Shown: one piece after another, positions 2,330-25,226 of the stretch | Layout: every line of letters starts with the position of its first letter | Numbering within the stretch: position 1 is the stretch's first letter | IMG/VR virus record: IMGVR_UViG_3300034073_001898 | Span: 1-26,311 of that record | Source: a virus | Direction: 5' to 3' (one strand) | DNA length: 26,311 nucleotides | Notes under the pieces: generated by a model | The model's database searches: none | The model's input: the letters and a program-made list of their open reading frames with translations, nothing else | What the model was told of the DNA's origin: nothing | Made by a program: the position numbers and the translations under genes

Positions 2330-2653
2330 TTGCGCGATTCACTCAAGGCCATCCTTGCCCCTCGGGTCGAGCCCTTCGAGCTCGGTCCGGGGGTCGCGGT
2401 CAAGGTCAAGGAACTGTCTCTCAAGGAGCGGATCTCTTGGCGCGAGGCGTCCATCGAGCCCGACGGCAAGCTCAAGGACAACTGGATCGCGGAACTGCTG
2501 TTCCGTTGTGTGCGGGACGAGGACGGGTCCGCGGTCTGGGATGCCCCCGAGGATGTCGACGGGTCCGAGTCGGTCTTGGGCAGGCTCCTAGAGGCCGCAC
2601 AGCGGGTCAACGGTCTAGCCGCGGACAGCACGAAGGAGGCCCAGGGAAACTAG
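2330..2653 (+). CDS. Tail assembly chaperone, unshifted product (gpG-like)
   Basis: This 107-residue protein starts at TTG, preceded by a purine-rich SD region (AAGAAAGACAGGA). It lies between the tail tube and tape measure genes, where siphoviruses encode the lambda gpG-like chaperone that coats the tape measure during tail assembly. It is small and acidic-basic mixed, with helical segments (LSLKERISWREA and VLGRLLEAAQRVNG). The decisive context is its 3' end: the last sense codons GGA AAC and the stop TAG immediately follow a G, forming the slippery heptamer GGGAAAC at 2644-2650, and an open -1 frame continues downstream. Confidence 0.8.
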   Translation: MRDSLKAILAPRVEPFELGPGVAVKVKELSLKERISWREASIEPDGKLKDNWIAELLFRCVRDEDGSAVWDAPEDVDGSESVLGRLLEAAQRVNGLAADSTKEAQGN

Positions 2654-2844
2654 AGCGGCTCCCGGAACTGCGCGTCGCGATGCGTTTGTGCCGGGAGCTC
2701 GGGAAGACCCTCGGGGAACTGCTCGAAGGGATGACCGCGGCGGAGTTCGAGTTGTGGATCGGATTGTGGAAAATCGAGGCCCTCGAAGAAGCCGAGCGAC
2801 AAGTCCGGGCGAAGGCACAAGCAGGGGGGCGGCGTCGTGGCTGA
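2330..2844 (+). CDS. Tail assembly chaperone, -1 frameshift product (gpGT-like)
   Basis: Slippage by -1 at GGGAAAC (2644-2650) would bypass the TAG at 2651-2653 and continue as LERLPELRVAMRLC..., giving about 171 residues: 107 from the upstream gene plus 64 more. The added part is helical and contains WIGLWKIEALEEAERQVR; it resembles the gpT-type extension that recruits tail tube subunits. The extension has no convincing start of its own (the first ATG, at 2680, lacks an SD) and its stop overlaps the tape measure start. Both observations favour expression by frameshifting. An independent small gene starting at 2680 is the less likely alternative. Confidence 0.8.
2644..2698 (+). promoter_or_regulatory. 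-1 programmed ribosomal frameshift signal
   Basis: The slippery heptamer G-GGA-AAC lies at 2644-2650 in the correct phase, and the stop codon follows immediately. After a 7-base spacer, an 8-base-pair GC-rich stem can form between GCTCCCGG (2658-2665) and CCGGGAGC (2691-2698). The 25-base loop contains further self-complementary sequence. An SD-like AAGGAGG at 2633-2639 lies 4 bases upstream of the heptamer and could pair with 16S rRNA in the translating ribosome. Spacer length and stem position match classical -1 frameshift sites. Confidence 0.8.
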
Positions 2845-4963
2845 GAGAGTAGAGGTCCTCATAACAGGGGACGCGTCCGGTCTAATCAGGACGACGGATC
2901 AGGCCTCGGAAGCTATGGCCGACTTCGGGCGGTCGGCGGGCAAGCTTTCCGGGATCGCGGATGCCTTGCGGTCCGACTTCGGCCGGATGACCGGGGCCTT
3001 CGCCGCGGCTCAAGTCGGTGTGTCCGCGGTCATCGGTGCCTTTAACCAAGCCGCGGCCGCGGTTCAGGCGATGAATGCCGAGGTCATCGACGCCGAGCGG
3101 GTGGCCTCGAAGTTGATTGCGGTATTCGATGGGGCCGAGGGTGCCGCTGCTCGGTTGACGGCTCAAGCGGAAGCCCTCGCCGGGTCGACCGTTTTCTTCG
3201 ATGACGACGCCATCAAGTCCGCGGCGGCGGCCCTTCGCGGGTTTGAGTTGACCGAGCAAGAGATCTCAAAGCTATTACCCGTGGCGGTCAACCTTGCAAC
3301 GGTCTTTGACAGCGATCTCACGAGTGCCGCAACGAAACTCGCCCTCGGTCTGAACGGCTCTACTAAGGGTCTTCGAGAGTTCGAGATCATCACTAAGGAA
3401 GGTGCAGACAGGGCGGAAATCTTCGCCCAGATCCTTGAGCGTGGCGAGAAGGCCGCGAAGGGTGCCGCGGATGCTCAGGGCGGATTGCGCGGGGCCACCG
3501 AGGGACTCAAGAAGGCTCAGGGCGAGTTCAATCAGGCACTCGGGAACCTTCTTGCGGGTCCGCAGTCGGACTTGCTCAACTTCTTGACGGATGCCACGAA
3601 CCGGGCGACGGGCCTTGCTAACTCGATGGCCGGGGCGACCGAGCAACTCATCAAGACCGCTCGGGTCATCGACCCGTTGACCGGAAAGATCGTCGAGGCG
3701 ACTGGGGTCGGCGGCAAGGACTTATTCGGACCGGGAAGCCTGACCGCTCAGTTCGCAGGACGCGGGTCTAGGCCAGCGGCAACGGCTCCGGAAAAGAAGC
3801 CCGAGGAACGTCCGGCAAGGTCGACTCGCAGGACGGCCGAGCGGGACCCGTTCGCCGGGTTCTCTGTCATGGAGCGATACCGCGACCAGGCTCGCCAAGA
3901 CTTGAATGACGAGATCGCGGCGGCCATCGAGGGTGACAAGAGATCAATCGACGCGGCGAAACAGGCCCGGGACATCCGGCTCGACGCCGCGGATCAGGCG
4001 GCCCAGATCGAGATCGATGCGGCGAAGGCCGCGACTGACCTTCTCGCTCAAGGGGCATCGGCCGCGGGGAAGTTCCTCGTCGACGTGCTCAAGGGTGACG
4101 CGTCTCTCGGTGGCTTCATCCGGTCCTTCGGTGGGGTGGCAACGGGACTCGGGGCGGCCTTTGGTGGACCGATCGGAGCGGCCCTTGCCGGGATCGGTGT
4201 CGAGGTTGCCGCGGCAATTGCCGACGAGACCGCGGCGCAGGATACCGCGGCGCAGAAACTCGGGAAGGCCGGGGACGAGCTCTTGAAGGCTGGCGAGATG
4301 ATGACCGAGGCCGAACTGGAACGACGGATCGAGGCAGCCAAGGCTGCGGCTCGGGCGGTCGGTCTGTCGGAGTCGGAGATCGCGAAGGCGGTTGCGGCCG
4401 CGAAGGGCGAACCCGAGGCGGCCCCTGCTTCCGGGGGGCGGCGCACCCAGAGCCTACCTCAGCCGGGCGAGACCTTGACCTTCGTCGGTGGTACCCCGAC
4501 GGTGGGTTATCGCGGCAACCAGTTCGGGGCCGTCGGTGCCGAGATGGAACAGGACTTTTCGGACTTTCTATTGCCGAGCGACGGAGTTTCTGGGGTAGGT
4601 GCTATCGTGACAGGCGGGACGGGAGTCCCGGGTGGTCTTCCGTCGGCCGGGCTTCCGGGTGCCCCTGCCGGATTGCCTGCCCCTGCTCCGCTTGCTCCGG
4701 AAACGACCGAGCCCTTCCGGGAGCTCGTCCGGATCCTGCGAGAGCTCTATTCGGTCCAACTCGACGAGGCCGGGGCAGGGATGACCGAGCGGCAGCCGCT
4801 GTATGTCTTCGACGTGGCGGCAGGCCGTGACGAGTTCACCCGGGCTCCGCGGGGTCTGTTCTTCCGTCCGGTCGGGTCAGGCCGTGGGGTCGACGGCGGA
4901 CAGGCTCTGTCCGGGGTATCCTCGAACACGACGAACAGGCGGACGAGCAGGAGGACCGGATGA
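2837..4963 (+). CDS. Tape measure protein
   Basis: This 708-residue protein starts at a GTG overlapping the end of the chaperone extension. Tape measure proteins span the tail lumen and set tail length; at the usual 0.15 nm per residue the tail would be about 100 nm, which is an inference. The sequence is dominated by alanine-rich helices, as in the family. Residues about 425-460 are hydrophobic and glycine-rich (FGGPIGAALAGIGVEVAAAI), a typical membrane-active segment. Residues about 585-630 are rich in proline, glycine and leucine. The C terminus is basic and ends in an RRTSRRTG tail. Position after the frameshifted chaperone and before the tail-tip gene supports the call strongly. Confidence 0.9.
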   Translation: MAERVEVLITGDASGLIRTTDQASEAMADFGRSAGKLSGIADALRSDFGRMTGAFAAAQVGVSAVIGAFNQAAAAVQAMNAEVIDAERVASKLIAVFDGAEGAAARLTAQAEALAGSTVFFDDDAIKSAAAALRGFELTEQEISKLLPVAVNLATVFDSDLTSAATKLALGLNGSTKGLREFEIITKEGADRAEIFAQILERGEKAAKGAADAQGGLRGATEGLKKAQGEFNQALGNLLAGPQSDLLNFLTDATNRATGLANSMAGATEQLIKTARVIDPLTGKIVEATGVGGKDLFGPGSLTAQFAGRGSRPAATAPEKKPEERPARSTRRTAERDPFAGFSVMERYRDQARQDLNDEIAAAIEGDKRSIDAAKQARDIRLDAADQAAQIEIDAAKAATDLLAQGASAAGKFLVDVLKGDASLGGFIRSFGGVATGLGAAFGGPIGAALAGIGVEVAAAIADETAAQDTAAQKLGKAGDELLKAGEMMTEAELERRIEAAKAAARAVGLSESEIAKAVAAAKGEPEAAPASGGRRTQSLPQPGETLTFVGGTPTVGYRGNQFGAVGAEMEQDFSDFLLPSDGVSGVGAIVTGGTGVPGGLPSAGLPGAPAGLPAPAPLAPETTEPFRELVRILRELYSVQLDEAGAGMTERQPLYVFDVAAGRDEFTRAPRGLFFRPVGSGRGVDGGQALSGVSSNTTNRRTSRRTG

Positions 4964-12624: not shown

Positions 12625-13298
12625 TGAGGATCATCCTCCCGACACAGGCAGTCCGGGATATCTACCAGGCGGTCAAGGCTCTCGACGCCGACCGGGTCAT
12701 CATCGACCCCGAGAAGGACATCGCGCATGTATGGTCACCCGATCGGGGGGCCGTCATCGGGGTGAAGCTATGGAAGAAGGAGGACCCGGGCGGGCCTGCC
12801 CCGCTCGAGGTCATCGACCAGACCATGGGGAACCCCGAGACCCCGCATGATGCCGAACTCGGCAGGGCCGTGGCCGTCACGATCCTCCCCGGGCGCGAGG
12901 CCTCGCCAATGATCCGGTCTGCCCTTGCGGATCTGGCCGAACGTCGCAGGATGGCGATGATCCACGGCTCGAAGGACAAGTCGGTCTCCATCCGGATCGA
13001 AGGCGGTCACGTCGAGATCGGTCCGTTCCGGGTCGAGGCCCCGACGTGGGGGAACGGCGAGACCGTGGTCAACGGCGGGTATCTCATGGCCGCGATTGAC
13101 CACGCCTTCGGGATGCAGGCCTATGGCGTCCAGATCGAGATTCACGAGGGAGGGGTGCTTCGGATCGTGATGCAGTCCCCGAATCAGCAGACCGAACCCG
13201 ACACTCGGTGGCGCGGGCAAGGAGTCCTCGGCCCTGTCGTCGTTCGTGACCGTCTCGTGGGGCTCAGGAAGGCGGGTTCCGATGCCGAGAGGTCTTGA
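12624..13298 (+). CDS. Early protein, possibly sliding-clamp-like
   Basis: This 224-residue protein begins in a TGATG overlap. Its N terminus (MRIILPTQAVRDIYQAVKAL) and C-terminal half (VSIRIEGGHVEIGPFRVEAP, then VVNGGYLMAAIDHAF, then a strand pair ending in VLRIVMQSPN) recall the strand-helix-strand repeats of bacterial beta clamps, especially the last domain where 'N-x-x-YL-x-x-A-L' precedes two strands. At 224 residues it is much shorter than the roughly 370-residue clamp, so it would have to be a reduced version. The resemblance is by eye and weak; it may be simply an uncharacterised early protein. It overlaps the following zinc-ribbon gene by 17 bases. Confidence 0.45.
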   Translation: MRIILPTQAVRDIYQAVKALDADRVIIDPEKDIAHVWSPDRGAVIGVKLWKKEDPGGPAPLEVIDQTMGNPETPHDAELGRAVAVTILPGREASPMIRSALADLAERRRMAMIHGSKDKSVSIRIEGGHVEIGPFRVEAPTWGNGETVVNGGYLMAAIDHAFGMQAYGVQIEIHEGGVLRIVMQSPNQQTEPDTRWRGQGVLGPVVVRDRLVGLRKAGSDAERS

Positions 13299-13971
13299 GT
13301 CCTGTCGGAACTGCGCACTCCTGTTCTCGGCCCTTGTAGACGGTCGATGCGAGCGGTGTATGAAGGCCTTAGGGCTCAAGTCGACGCTCAAGGAGTGCCG
13401 GGATTGCCGGGAGACCTTCGACGAGTCGGCGTTCTACAAGACCGCGAAGGGCGGACGGATGGCCCGGTGCAAGGACTGTTTCAACGTGGCAGACCGGGCC
13501 GCGAAGAAGGCCAGGGCCGAGCGTATCCGAGTCGCCGAGGCCCGGTCCTCGTTCCGGTCCGAGTTGGCCCCGGTCGAGGACATCGAGCCGGAGCCGGAGC
13601 CCGAGGAGCCCATCGACCCGGACGAGCTCGAGCAGGTTGTCCAGGTCGTCAAGAACAAGAACAGGGCCGAGCGGCTGGCAGTCGCCATGGCCGTTGCCTC
13701 GACGAAGAACACGGGGCGCGGGAAGCCGAGGTCTCGTCATCTCGGGGCCACAGAGCTCCCGTGTACGTCCTGTCTTCAGACCCTGCCCGCGGATCGTTTC
13801 GCGATCGATGTCCGGCGAGGGTACATCCATCCCCATTGTCACGATTGCATCAAGGCGCGGCATCGGAACCGCAGGTCCCGGGATGAGTTCATCTACACCC
13901 TCGGGCGGCTCGTCCTCTGGCGGATGGCCTACGATTCGGCCTTCCCGAAGAACTTTCTCGAAACCTGTTGA
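13282..13971 (+). CDS. Triple zinc-ribbon protein
   Basis: The start is taken as the ATG at 13282, with AGGAAGGCGGG upstream, giving 229 residues. Three Cys-pair modules are visible: CRNC...CERC near residues 7-26, CRDC...CKDC near 39-65, and CTSC...HCHDC near 160-195. The second and third resemble the CxxC-x-F-x-x-x-CxxC ribbon seen in phage endonuclease VII and HNH-associated proteins, but no nuclease core follows. The middle (about 90-125) is a Glu/Pro-rich acidic linker. A DNA-binding or structural role is likely. The stop codon overlaps the -35 of promoter B, so this gene closes the first early operon. Confidence 0.75.
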   Translation: MPRGLESCRNCALLFSALVDGRCERCMKALGLKSTLKECRDCRETFDESAFYKTAKGGRMARCKDCFNVADRAAKKARAERIRVAEARSSFRSELAPVEDIEPEPEPEEPIDPDELEQVVQVVKNKNRAERLAVAMAVASTKNTGRGKPRSRHLGATELPCTSCLQTLPADRFAIDVRRGYIHPHCHDCIKARHRNRRSRDEFIYTLGRLVLWRMAYDSAFPKNFLETC

Positions 13972-13995
13972 CAGTCCCGGGAAACCTGTTAGTAT
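13954..13995 (+). promoter_or_regulatory. Early promoter B with paired GAAACCTGTT elements
   Basis: TTTCTC (13954-13959) precedes a perfect 10-base direct repeat, GAAACCTGTT, at 13960-13969 and 13981-13990, exactly 21 bases apart. The -35 TTGACA (13968-13973) is a perfect consensus and overlaps the first copy; the -10 TAGTAT (13990-13995) gives a 16-base spacer, with TATAAG (13993-13998) as an alternative. It shares its layout with the promoters at 11533 and 23290 and drives the genes from 14076. Confidence 0.8.
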
Positions 13996-20513: not shown

Positions 20514-20865
20514 GACCAAGCGGACCCCAGAGGTCAGGGAAGCCCTGCTCCGGTATATCCGGGCGGGGAACTACCACGAGACCGCGTGCCGGGCGGCAGG
20601 GGTCTCGAAGGACTTCTTCTACGAGTGGATCAAGGCCGACCCCGACTTCGCCGACGACGTAAAAGCGGCCGAGGGTGAGGCCGAGGCCGAGATGCTTGCC
20701 TGCATCCGGGAAGCGGCCCTCGCCGACAAGACTTGGACCGCGGCGGCGTGGTACCTCGAACGGAAGAGTCCGGACCGATTCGGCAGGCAGGACCGCAGGC
20801 CCGAGGGCGCGGACAAGACCGAGGTCGTGATCAAGTGGGCGGATGAGGAAGGCGGGAATGCATGA
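20506..20865 (+). CDS. Putative terminase small subunit
   Basis: This 119-residue protein starts at an ATG after GGGAAGG. Residues about 5-45 form a homeodomain-like helix-turn-helix (EVREALLRYIRAGNYHETACRAAGVSKDFFYEWIKA), typical of phage small terminases and related DNA-binding proteins. A helical segment follows (AEAEMLACIREAALADK), then AAAWYLERKSPDRFG, a pattern often seen in small terminases, before a polar C terminus. Small terminase binds the packaging site and stimulates the large subunit. The large subunit follows two genes later. An unrelated HTH protein is possible, as the large-subunit gene is separated by a methyltransferase. Confidence 0.72.
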   Translation: MAKTKRTPEVREALLRYIRAGNYHETACRAAGVSKDFFYEWIKADPDFADDVKAAEGEAEAEMLACIREAALADKTWTAAAWYLERKSPDRFGRQDRRPEGADKTEVVIKWADEEGGNA

Positions 20866-22025
20866 TCCTCGTAGGGGACTGCCGGGCTCGACTCCGGGAG
20901 CTTGATACCGAGTCGGTCGATTCCATCGTCACGGACCCCCCGTACGAACTCGGGTTCATGGGGAAGTCCTGGGACGCGTCAGGCATCGCGTATGACCTCG
21001 ATGTCTGGCGCGAGTGCCTGCGGGTCTTGAAGCCCGGCGGCCATCTTCTCGCGTTCGGTGCACCGAGAACTTATCACCGACTTGCTTGTGCCATCGAGGA
21101 TGCCGGGTTGACCCTTAGAGAATGCCTCATGTGGATTTTTGGTGCAGGATTCCCGAAATCTCACAACCTTGACGGCGCGTGGAAAGGATGGGGGACCGCG
21201 CTAAAACCGGCGTACGAACCCATCGTCATGGCGCGCAAGCCGCTGCGGGGCACGGTGGCGCAGAACGTGATGGCCTACGGGACCGGGGCGATCAACGTGG
21301 ACGGGTGCAGGGTGGGGACGCAAGGCGGCACAAGGGCAGATGACAAGCCAAAATATCAAGACGGAATGTTCAAAGGCATCGGCGGAAAGGTTACGATCAC
21401 GCAACTTGACGCAGGCCGCTGGCCCGCGAACGTCATCCACGATGGGAGCGAGGAGGTCGTGGGTATGTTTCCTGATGTCGGCAAATCGACTGGAGGTCTA
21501 ACCCCTGGTGTTGGAAGTAAAACGCGACCGGCAACATGGTCTTTCGGAAATACCTTAGGGGCAGGTGCCGGAGGGTATGGCGACTCCGGCTCCGCTGCCC
21601 GCTTCTTCTACTCGGCCAAGGCAAGCAAGGCCGACCGGGACGAGGGCATGGAGGCGTGGGACGATCGGACGTTCAACCGAGTAAATCCTGGCGGGCTTGA
21701 GAATGACCCGCGATGGGCACCTGTCGAGCGGAAGAACGTCCACCCCACGGTCAAGCCGACCGATCTCATGCGCTATCTGGTCCGTCTCGTCACGCCCCCG
21801 GGCGGTCTGGTCCTCGACCCGTTCACGGGGTCCGGCTCGACGGGCAAGGCGGCCGTCCTCGAGGGAATGCGGTTCATCGGGTGCGAACTGTCCCCAGAAT
21901 ATGCGGCGATTGCCGAGGCCCGGATCAAGGCAGCCGCGGTCAAGACCGGGCAGGTCTTTGAGATCCCGGCGTCCCCTGCCCCGGGCCGCAAGGCCGACGG
22001 CGAGCAACTGAGGCTCTTCGCATGA
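20862..22025 (+). CDS. Beta-class DNA methyltransferase (N6-adenine or N4-cytosine)
   Basis: This 387-residue protein starts in an ATGA overlap. The catalytic DPPY motif is at residues 25-28, and the AdoMet-binding DPFTGSGSTGKAA is at about 319-331. Catalytic motif before cofactor motif, with the recognition region between, is the beta arrangement. DPPY is most common in N6-adenine enzymes, so adenine is favoured without excluding N4-cytosine. The middle (about 120-270) is less GC-rich and uses other codons than its neighbours, consistent with a replaced recognition region. It probably protects phage DNA from host restriction. It lies between the terminase genes, so it may also mark DNA for packaging. 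Confidence 0.9.
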   Translation: MILVGDCRARLRELDTESVDSIVTDPPYELGFMGKSWDASGIAYDLDVWRECLRVLKPGGHLLAFGAPRTYHRLACAIEDAGLTLRECLMWIFGAGFPKSHNLDGAWKGWGTALKPAYEPIVMARKPLRGTVAQNVMAYGTGAINVDGCRVGTQGGTRADDKPKYQDGMFKGIGGKVTITQLDAGRWPANVIHDGSEEVVGMFPDVGKSTGGLTPGVGSKTRPATWSFGNTLGAGAGGYGDSGSAARFFYSAKASKADRDEGMEAWDDRTFNRVNPGGLENDPRWAPVERKNVHPTVKPTDLMRYLVRLVTPPGGLVLDPFTGSGSTGKAAVLEGMRFIGCELSPEYAAIAEARIKAAAVKTGQVFEIPASPAPGRKADGEQLRLFA

Positions 22026-23359: not shown

Positions 23360-23587
23360 ATGACGAACAAACAGCAAATCATTCACGCTCTCGAGAACGG
23401 TCTGGTCATTGAAGGTGAGTCTTTTGGCGAAGACGGATGGGTCTGGACCGGAAATCTCGGACTGACTCCTTTGTATAGATATGCTCCTGCCATCTACGCC
23501 CTCGAGAAGGAAGGGAAAATCGAGGCATACCGGGACGAGTTCGCTGCTCGTCAGGGATGGGGAACAATGGTGCGTCTGTGCAAGTAG
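23360..23587 (+). CDS. Small protein of unknown function, first gene of modification operon
   Basis: This 75-residue protein starts at the ATG at 23360, 9 bases from the SD core of hairpin H4. The N-terminal part is helical (KQQIIHALENGLVIEG), followed by aromatic-rich segments (GEDGWVWTGNLG, LYRYAPAIYALEKEGKIEAYRDEF), which could form a winged-helix-like or small alpha/beta fold. The C-terminal coding sequence overlaps the Mom-like gene by 31 bases in another frame. No family is recognised. Being co-transcribed with DNA-modification genes suggests a related or regulatory role, which is inference only. Confidence 0.6.
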   Translation: MTNKQQIIHALENGLVIEGESFGEDGWVWTGNLGLTPLYRYAPAIYALEKEGKIEAYRDEFAARQGWGTMVRLCK

Positions 23588-24237
23588 TACGCACGACCAA
23601 GCAGGTGGCCGAGACGTTTGTCTCGGTCAAGCACTACAGCCGAAGGCCTTCCGTGTTCTGGGAGGCCTTCGCGCTTGTCGAGGATGGCCACGTTCAAGGC
23701 GTCGTCGTGTACGGTCAACCAAGTCCACCGATTCAGCGTCATGCTTTCCGTGACCGTGACTTCCGGCTGTACGAGTTGACCCGCCTTGTGGTACAGACCA
23801 AGACTCGCAACGCTGCGAGCTTTCTAATCGGCAACAGTCTGCGGATGCTGGCAAGCCAGCCATGCGCGGTCGTCAGTTACGCGGACAGCGAGATGGGGCA
23901 TGCGGGCATTGTCTATCAGGCAACCAACTGGATCTATACCGGAGCCACCGTCAGCCACGACAAGGCGTATATCGTGGACGGCAAGCGACTGCACCCGATG
24001 ACCCTTCGTGATATGGGCATCACGAACCCGACCGCATGGGCTAAGACCAACGGCATCGAGATGGTGCCGCCGATGCAGAAGCACCGTTACTTTAAGTTGA
24101 TCGGCAACAGACGCGAGCGATCGGTGATGCTGGCGAAGCTGTCTTACCCTGTAGTCAACGCCTACCCTAAGGCCGACGCCACGCGGTACGACGACGGTGC
24201 TCCTATTGTGATGCCTGTTCCTTTGACGCTTTTCTAA
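23557..24237 (+). CDS. Mom-like DNA adenine modification protein
   Basis: This 226-residue protein is counted from the ATG at 23557; a GTG at 23578 is a plausible alternative, since SDs are weak at both. Recognisable features are VSVKHYSRRPSVFWEAFALVEDG, GVVVYGQPSPP, the highly characteristic YELTRLVV, then NAASFLIGNSLRML and VVSYADSEMGHAGIVYQATNW with YTG. This is the acetyltransferase-like fold of Mom, which in phage Mu makes a methylcarbamoyl-type adenine change that blocks many restriction enzymes. Codon use is less GC-biased than neighbours, suggesting recent acquisition. The substrate here is inferred from the family. Its stop is followed by a terminator. Confidence 0.83.
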   Translation: MGNNGASVQVVRTTKQVAETFVSVKHYSRRPSVFWEAFALVEDGHVQGVVVYGQPSPPIQRHAFRDRDFRLYELTRLVVQTKTRNAASFLIGNSLRMLASQPCAVVSYADSEMGHAGIVYQATNWIYTGATVSHDKAYIVDGKRLHPMTLRDMGITNPTAWAKTNGIEMVPPMQKHRYFKLIGNRRERSVMLAKLSYPVVNAYPKADATRYDDGAPIVMPVPLTLF

Positions 24238-24305: not shown

Positions 24306-25226
24306 ATGATGAGATACGGTTCGGTTTGTAGCGGCATCGAGGCCGCAAGCGTTGCATGGGAGCCTCTGGGCTGGCAGCCCGCGTGGTTCTCGGAGATTGA
24401 CGCGTTCCCTTCGGCGGTGCTGGCGCACAGATTCCCAGCCGTGCCGAACCTCGGGGACATGACTACCATTCACGAGAAAGAGGAGTTTCAACGTGACGCA
24501 ATTGACCTTCTGGTCGGTGGAACCCCCTGTCAGTCCTTCTCAGTCGCCGGACTTCGCGGAGGCTTGGAGGATCCCAGAGGCAACCTTGCACTCATATTCT
24601 TGCGGATTGCCAGCATCGCCCGGCCTCGATGGATCGTCTGGGAAAACGTCCCCGGTGTCTTGTCATCGAACGGCGGACGGGACTTTGGTTCCTTCCTCGG
24701 GGCGTTGGCAGAACTCGGGTATGGGTGGGCCTACCGGGTCCTTGACGCTCAGTACTTCGGAGTTCCCCAACGACGCCGTCGCGTCTTCGTTGTCGGACAT
24801 CTTGGAGACGGAGCCCGTGCCGCAAGAGTTCTTTTTGAGCCCGAGAGCGTGCGAGGGTATCCTTCGCAGGGCCGAGGCCCGCAAGTTCAAGTTGCCGCAT
24901 GCCCTACGACAGGCACTGGAAAGCGTTATGACGCAGAGACCGAGACCCTGATTGCCTTCCACGCAACGCAAGACCCGATCAGCGGCCCGGTATCCCCGGC
25001 TCTCGGGACCAGCATGTACGCCGGAGTCCTTCATCAAGGCGTCCGACGCCTGACCCCGAGAGAGTGCGAGCGGTTGCAGGGATTCCCGGACGACTGGACC
25101 CTCGTCCCGTATCGAGGCAAGCCCGCGGCCAACGGCCCGAGGTACAAGGCCTGCGGTAACTCGATGGCCGTCCCCGTGATGCGATGGATCGGGAGCAGGA
25201 TTGCCGAGGCCGAGGCCGAGTCTTGA
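24306..25226 (+). CDS. DNA cytosine-5 methyltransferase
   Basis: This 306-residue protein starts with two adjacent ATGs (24306, 24309). All ordered motifs of C5 methyltransferases are visible: I GSVCSGIEAA, IV GGTPCQSFS with the catalytic cysteine near residue 75, VI WENVPG, VIII QRRRRVFVVG, IX RRLTPRECERLQGFPDDW and X ACGNSMAVPV. The recognition region between VIII and IX is short (about residues 170-230). It methylates a cytosine in a short DNA sequence, likely for restriction evasion; the site cannot be read from the sequence. An out-of-frame gene overlaps motifs IV-VIII. The gene is flanked by 18-base direct repeats, as in a mobile cassette. Confidence 0.95.
   Translation: MMRYGSVCSGIEAASVAWEPLGWQPAWFSEIDAFPSAVLAHRFPAVPNLGDMTTIHEKEEFQRDAIDLLVGGTPCQSFSVAGLRGGLEDPRGNLALIFLRIASIARPRWIVWENVPGVLSSNGGRDFGSFLGALAELGYGWAYRVLDAQYFGVPQRRRRVFVVGHLGDGARAARVLFEPESVRGYPSQGRGPQVQVAACPTTGTGKRYDAETETLIAFHATQDPISGPVSPALGTSMYAGVLHQGVRRLTPRECERLQGFPDDWTLVPYRGKPAANGPRYKACGNSMAVPVMRWIGSRIAEAEAES
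24493..24951 (+). CDS. Overlapping gene inside the cytosine methyltransferase
   Basis: This 152-residue frame (+1 relative to the methyltransferase) starts at GTG 24493, with AGAGGAG (24479-24485) 7 bases upstream, an ideal independent SD. It spans the methyltransferase from just before motif IV to past motif VIII. The product contains PVSPSQSPDFAEAW, LVPSSGRWQNSGMGGPT, and ends with SLSDILETEPVPQEFFLSP, ACEGILRRAEARKFKLPHAL. I recall these C-terminal patterns from small hypothetical proteins encoded over or beside phage cytosine methyltransferases, so dual coding is likely and not a chance open frame. Function is unknown. There are no membrane segments; the N-terminal half is rich in Ser/Pro. 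Confidence 0.72.
   Translation: MTQLTFWSVEPPVSPSQSPDFAEAWRIPEATLHSYSCGLPASPGLDGSSGKTSPVSCHRTADGTLVPSSGRWQNSGMGGPTGSLTLSTSEFPNDAVASSLSDILETEPVPQEFFLSPRACEGILRRAEARKFKLPHALRQALESVMTQRPRP

Follow-up and report, generated by a model that had tools for sequence, protein, structure and literature searches.

Background

In phage lambda the slip site of the tail chaperone genes (G/GT) is GGGAAAG, and the stop codon lies some codons later. The locus analyzed here would share with lambda a low-level -1 shift near the end of a tail chaperone gene; in lambda the resulting fusion is described as adding a T domain, which binds to the tail tube protein, and the ratio given is 30:1 (PMC5009743). Likewise, phage HK97 gp13/gp14 carries an annotated -1 frameshift, and two genes of the HK97 chaperone cluster are reported to have shifted at 6 and 7% in an assay (PMC3711429). 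The heptamer G_GGA_AAC itself has been reported as the g-t shift site of the haloarchaeal virus HCTV-1 (which has an archaeal host) and, on mammalian ribosomes, is one of the slipperiest sites (PMC5009743). The average distance from heptamer to stop is given as 26 bases in the SEA-PHAGES training set and as 36 bases in the Xu set (PMC10885494).

The effect of a stop codon that immediately follows the slip site (an intercodon stop) has been studied in HIV-1 constructs, where a stop at the next codon cut frameshifting by about 70% and extra eRF1 gave a further 20-37% cut; as natural cases the same source cites Rous sarcoma virus and barley yellow dwarf virus, and it reports RF2 control in bacteria (PMC4373837). 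In prfB, the stop at the shift site is described as always UGA (PMC5009743).

Here these systems are compared with a locus in a virus record of IMG/VR that is 26,311 bases long and has 62-65% GC; the whole of it is termed the window. The locus is read as a programmed -1 ribosomal frameshift of the G/GT type in the tail assembly chaperone of a siphophage, with a probability of roughly 0.94. A preliminary description had already proposed a -1 frameshift joining two tail chaperone ORFs, and this core of it is strongly supported by gene order, by family matches, by a slippery heptamer and a stop codon that recur in 28 of 28 contigs, and by conservation of the -1 frame as protein.

Results and discussion

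Anatomy of the locus and predicted products

The 0-frame ORF (2330-2653, + strand) has a TTG start, where relatives such as L027 and L028 have ATG, encodes 107 amino acids and ends in CAG GGA AAC TAG. Within this end the slippery heptamer GGGAAAC lies at 2644-2650 (+) in X_XXY_YYZ phase, and the very next codon is the 0-frame stop TAG (2651-2653, +). Read in the -1 frame from GGG, the extension (2644-2844, +) begins GK-LERLPELR (that is, GK LERLPELRVAMRLCRELG...) and remains open until 2844, comprising 66 codons and the stop that ends there. The heptamer and stop, together with the AAGGAGG and the stem considered below, lie exactly where the preliminary description had placed them. Heptamers of the form XXXYYYN (where Y is A or T) occur just 11 times on the + strand across the 26,311 bases of the window, so that an in-phase one at the exact end of an ORF is unlikely to be there by chance. 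(A second + strand GGGAAAC, at 13979-13985, lies just past the end of ORF 13246-13971 and is thus no in-frame slip site of that ORF.)

The slippage, its rate and the roles of the two products are predicted from sequence, as follows. Most ribosomes would read the 0 frame and stop at UAG, yielding the 107-residue chaperone; a minority would slip back one base on G_GGA_AAC and read LERLPELR... to 2844, yielding a fusion of 171 residues whose T-type domain, as in lambda, would connect the tape measure complex with the tail tube protein. On the standard reading, the tRNAs on GGA and AAC would slip in tandem, which would leave Gly-Asn at the site (QGN-LERLPELR). Because such slippage would follow the decoding of AAC, the residue would be Asn and the main junction QGNLER; a QGK junction would arise only with slippage before AAC is decoded. 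The peptide QGKLER, which had been suggested as a target for mass spectrometry, is therefore unlikely to be the main junction. Heptamers whose second codon is AAA or AAG are reported to shift better in E. coli than those with AAC (PMC4066793), so the rate at this site may be low, which would suit a low ratio like lambda's 30:1.

Gene neighbourhood and family matches

The chaperone pair sits between the gene for a tail tube (major tail) protein (1919-2314, +; Pfam PF06199, E 2.8e-9; phrog_10528, E 9.5e-24) and that for a tape measure protein (2837-4963, +; GTG start, 708 residues), the latter assigned by its position, its length and a weak profile match (phrog_167, E 0.0019). The 0-frame product, of G type, matches PHROG 344 (phrog_344), a tail assembly chaperone family, with E 1.3e-11, as do the 0-frame products of three divergent relatives; against Pfam it gave no match up to E 1. 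The -1 product matches two tail protein families, phrog_337 and phrog_14766, with E about 2e-6, these matches starting at its residue 4 or 7. When nine -1 products were aligned by hhalign with the T parts of eight named phages, including HK97, Bcep176 and phiSASD1, the probability was 97.8 and E was 9.9e-13 over 45 columns. A search of solved structures returned a single unrelated match (E 0.24).

Several other features of the window deserve mention. The GTG start of the tape measure gene shares 8 bases (2837-2844) with the end of the -1 ORF, and through this overlap the fused chaperone and the tape measure protein may be translationally coupled. Upstream there are two tandem tail-tube-like genes, 1189-1908 and 1919-2314; the product of the former matches phrog_9522 along almost its whole length and carries an additional C-terminal part with an F5/8 type C match under the curated cut-off. 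Further along, the window encodes a Mom-like DNA modification protein (23557-24237; phrog_1384, E 3e-43), near which lie two DNA methyltransferase genes (20862-22025 and 24306-25226).

Conservation of the heptamer and of the abutting stop

Relatives were collected by scanning viral_contigs with peptide patterns lying outside the heptamer. This yielded 24 contigs and then 3 more, a further scan adding none, so that the set consists of 28 contigs (the window and 27 relatives) with 23 distinct sequences over 60 bases either side. L016, whose contig ends inside the tail tube gene, was left unscored, and L054, which lacks most of the -1 ORF, was omitted from the tree and from the -1 counts. Scans of genome_contigs confirmed no prophage relatives.

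In all 28 contigs a slippery heptamer directly abuts the 0-frame stop. The heptamer is GGGAAAC in 21, AAAAAAC in 2 and AAAAAAG in 5, and the stop is TAG in 23, TAA in 4 and TGA in 1; over 27 contigs, the next 0-frame stop comes 6 to 27 codons further downstream. In a tree of the 23 distinct fusion proteins (identical ones collapsed), the TGA row and the TAA rows fall among TAG rows. Given that the tree is weak at several inner branches and long in the AAAAAAG rows, the sole claim drawn from this tree is that the identity of the stop changed more than once.

The stop could in principle be a passive consequence of the -1 frame codon that overlaps it. Elsewhere in the -1 ORFs of 20 contigs, however, a CTN codon and the base after it spell a 0-frame stop in just 14 of 155 cases, and for 11 ORFs of the window the figure is 32 of 329; since so few CTN codons make such a stop, a fixed one at the slip-site codon is unlikely to be passive.

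The same conservation bears on the notion that the heptamer is there by chance, or that a sequencing or assembly error has broken the frame at the end of a single fused gene. Such an error is conceivable in that the window is an IMG/VR virus record rather than an isolate; yet the arrangement is repeated in 27 further contigs whose -1 parts diverge down to about 40% identity and whose stops and heptamers vary, and it is also found in 5 of the 22 named relatives described below. This explanation is already refuted by conservation and retains practically no probability.

A fusion made by slippage of RNA polymerase, instead of the ribosome, would be favoured by L050-L053, which have runs of 8 A at the site. 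In the window, though, no run there is longer than three, GGGAAAC is kept in 21 of the 28 contigs, and the slip phase, for which RNA polymerase slippage has no need, is kept throughout. Transcriptional slippage is thus extremely improbable.

Where reading of the -1 frame begins

An ATG at 2680-2682 (+), codon 13 of the extension, raises the alternative that the second ORF is a separate gene started there, with no frameshift at all. This ATG is kept in 23 of the 27 contigs covering codon 13, and a start at 2680 had been named beforehand as a finding that would overturn the frameshift. What distinguishes the two readings is the stretch between the slip site and the ATG. For -1 codons 4-12, all of which precede 2680, comparison of 15 contigs gives 371 synonymous and 174 non-synonymous differences in the -1 frame, as against 12 and 538 in the 0 frame and 8 and 498 in the +1 frame; these counts are pairwise and hence do not represent independent events. 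(The 15 of 28 contigs are the 21 with GGGAAAC less L021, L043-L046 and L054; the 7 with other heptamers are outside the comparison.) In other words, it is only in the -1 frame that residues ahead of the ATG show conservation. The family matches likewise begin ahead of codon 13.

The sequence upstream narrows the possibilities further. In L050, L052 and L053 (the latter two having the same sequence near the site) the -1 frame is closed by a stop immediately before the heptamer; together with the 0-frame stop directly after it, this confines the frame change to those 7 bases. In L019-L025 the -1 frame has a stop 12 bases ahead of the heptamer, and no ATG, GTG or TTG occurs from there to codon 12. 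Six relatives have GTG at codon 11, and three have TTG at codon 7 or 9; these codons lie after conserved residues, so the reading is unchanged. The sequence comparisons thus show that the -1 frame is conserved as protein from just after the slip site onward.

Codon 13 itself is TTG, TTA, CTC or CTG in four relatives, the last three codons being those of L050, L051 and L069; by eye, no SD-like sequence precedes 2680 at initiation distance; and a separate start would not require a heptamer and stop, both of which are nevertheless kept in 28 of 28 contigs. Consequently, an independent start at 2680 was rejected as the main route, and a separate gene started there is very improbable. Given that codon 13 is ATG in 23 of 27 contigs, a minor internal start may exist beside the frameshift.

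The SD-like sequence

The sequence AAGGAGG lies at 2633-2639 (+), 4 bases before the heptamer. It occurs 7 times on the + strand of the window and in frame once within the 11 ORFs checked, namely at 2633; anti-SD pairing as good is found in just 0.6% of 1,595 coding 24-base stretches of the window. The Lys-Glu that it encodes uses the preferred codons AAG and GAG, so that synonymous choice alone is no proof of an SD function. It was rejected as the SD of an overlapping start, there being by eye no ATG, GTG or TTG within about 20 bases downstream.

For stimulation of -1 shifting, SD spacings of 9-14 bases (PMC5009743) and of 8-11 (PMC6321510) are reported, and another study used a range of 6-17 bases before the second base of the motif (PMC4066793). 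With its 4 bases, the window falls outside the dnaX-type range of 9-14 bases before the site; its GGAG core, 6 bases before the second heptamer base, is at the near edge of the 6-17 range (PMC4066793). The spacing is therefore at or below the near edge of the published ranges, and an SD there may even lower -1 shifting, since one adjoining the E site is reported to be able to do so (PMC6321510).

AAGGAGG is kept in 14 of the 28 contigs, with GAGGAGG 7 bases before the heptamer in L052 and L053 and weaker sequences in the other 12; as a family-wide signal it was therefore rejected. Among the 12 named relatives that bear a heptamer, 5 (Bcep176, KS9, Jflix2, phiSASD1 and Dubu) have an SD-like sequence about 4-7 bases before it (-6.6 to -10.3 kcal/mol), so that close spacing is not odd for the tail chaperone family. 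The unusual effect once suspected from an SD closer than that of dnaX thus rests on a spacing that is real, but that is not peculiar to this phage.

The downstream stem-loop

Downstream of the stop, GCTCCCGG (2658-2665) is the exact 8-pair complement of CCGGGAGC (2691-2698), the two forming the arms of a GC stem-loop (2658-2698, +) with a 25-base loop. The gap of 7 bases from the heptamer is within the 5-9 bases after the shift site reported for stems (PMC8211752) and taken here as the dnaX-type range. Perfect 8-pair stems with loops of 3-40 have 49 start points in the window, which by simple arithmetic gives any one site a chance of about 1% of having such a stem start 5-9 bases downstream; the stem by itself is thus less remarkable. 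In folding energy the 55-mer at 2655 is within the 0.9% most stable of 5,252, and the 55-mer at 2656 has a z of -2.8, that of the 70-mer at 2651 being only -1.1.

When 21 distinct downstream stretches were folded, 6 had a z of -2 or below, partly with pairs other than those of the window. In an alignment of 17 sequences (from which the AAAAAAG group is absent), 76.5% of the cells of the stem were paired, compared with 75.4% when shuffled (131 of the 500 shuffles were as high), versions of the stem slid along the alignment reached at most 62.5%, and the RNAalifold consensus had 3 pairs only. Because it shows no covariation among relatives, the stem was rejected as a conserved signal, and it is considered here as a possible local stimulator. 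What had been called a complete signal accordingly holds as regards the heptamer and stop, found in 28 of 28 contigs, but not as regards AAGGAGG and the stem, neither of which is conserved family-wide; the latter two may tune the rate in the lineage of the window and are placed outside the conserved signal.

The abutting stop and release factor competition

With the stop in the A site, GGA and AAC would occupy the E and P sites, so that a release factor and slippage could compete. The earlier suggestion that an abutting stop allows competition between termination and slippage is sound and agrees with published constructs, in which a release factor can act ahead of slippage (PMC4373837); for this phage it would follow from the stop being the codon right after the heptamer, taken together with the published work on stop intercodons. 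Sensing of a specific release factor, as in prfB, was rejected: as the identity of the stop is not kept (23 TAG, 4 TAA, 1 TGA), a sensor of one release factor is unlikely.

A more speculative extension, which is judged doubtful, is that the abutting stop is a selected part of the signal, slippage occurring mainly one step late and competition with the release factor setting the ratio of short to fused product. Such a late step would put the SD-like sequence 8 bases from the P-site codon, nearer the spacing of known -1 stimulators. If this were true, the locus would represent, within a tail assembly system, a -1 equivalent of stop-dependent frameshifting. In the titles and abstract beginnings of the literature found there was no account of an abutting stop in tail chaperones, which is no proof of absence. 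However slippage is timed, the stop abuts the heptamer in 28 of 28 contigs though both vary, whereas the published averages are 26 and 36 bases (PMC10885494), which is a testable regularity; and, if the abutting stop is functional, these phages would offer a natural bacterial test bed for competition between -1 slippage and release factors.

Comparison with named phages and known systems

Direct searches of phage records yielded at most one weak match per query: P0001 had one (E 0.08) and P0002 none, and of two further queries one was without a match and the other had one (E 0.2). The window and its relatives add a clade of uncultivated phages to the known tail chaperone frameshifts. A third further query, a typed chaperone from the AAAAAAG group, found five phage records (E 5e-9 to 2e-3). 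Named relatives were found by tblastn from Bcep176 and Madraxi (members of phrog_344) and from this typed chaperone, which matched 87, 22 and 5 records in overlapping lists; 22 were fetched, being chosen for diversity and hence not a random sample, and among named phages only Bcep176 and Madraxi themselves were tested against phrog_344.

Among these 22, the heptamer abuts the stop in 5 (Halomonas H4907, EcoS-569R3, EcoS-640R1, phiSASD1 and Dubu), lies 3 bases before it in 1, and lies 30-36 bases before it in 6 (Bcep176, KS9, Jflix2, Yara, PHTowN and KLB5); in the other 10 no X_XXY_YYZ heptamer occurs within 50 bases of the stop. A joined gene is annotated in 6 of the 22 records and, among the 5 abutting cases, in two (phiSASD1 and Dubu). 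The abutting stop is thus a recurrent variant of the family and no novelty of the window. Two Klebsiella phage relatives, L107 (855-864) and L108 (834-843), have a chaperone ORF ending in GCA AAG TAA, a -1 overlap of just 7 bases and no X_XXY_YYZ heptamer; there the ribosome may slip on a single codon, A_AAG, next to the stop.

HK97 is akin to the window in that its 0-frame protein is related (by tblastn through Bcep176), as is its T part; unlike the window, it lacks any X_XXY_YYZ heptamer within 50 bases of the stop. Eukaryotic -1 shift sites with the stop as next codon are alike in that one respect, and differ in ribosomes, genes and stimulators; this is a likeness and no kinship. Gp35/gp35.1 of phiSASD1 and gp13/gp14 of Dubu, both Streptomyces phages, share with the window GGGAAAC followed at once by the 0-frame stop and an SD-like sequence that precedes the heptamer by about 4-6 bases; their records annotate the joined fusion gene, and the extension begins GKL-x-ARPER, which resembles GKLERLPELR in the window. 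They differ from the window in their Streptomyces hosts, in having TGA as the stop and Phe where the window has Met 13, and in a longer extension, about 115 codons past the stop. The type of frameshift described here is thus already known, and its abutting-stop geometry is shared with these phages rather than new.
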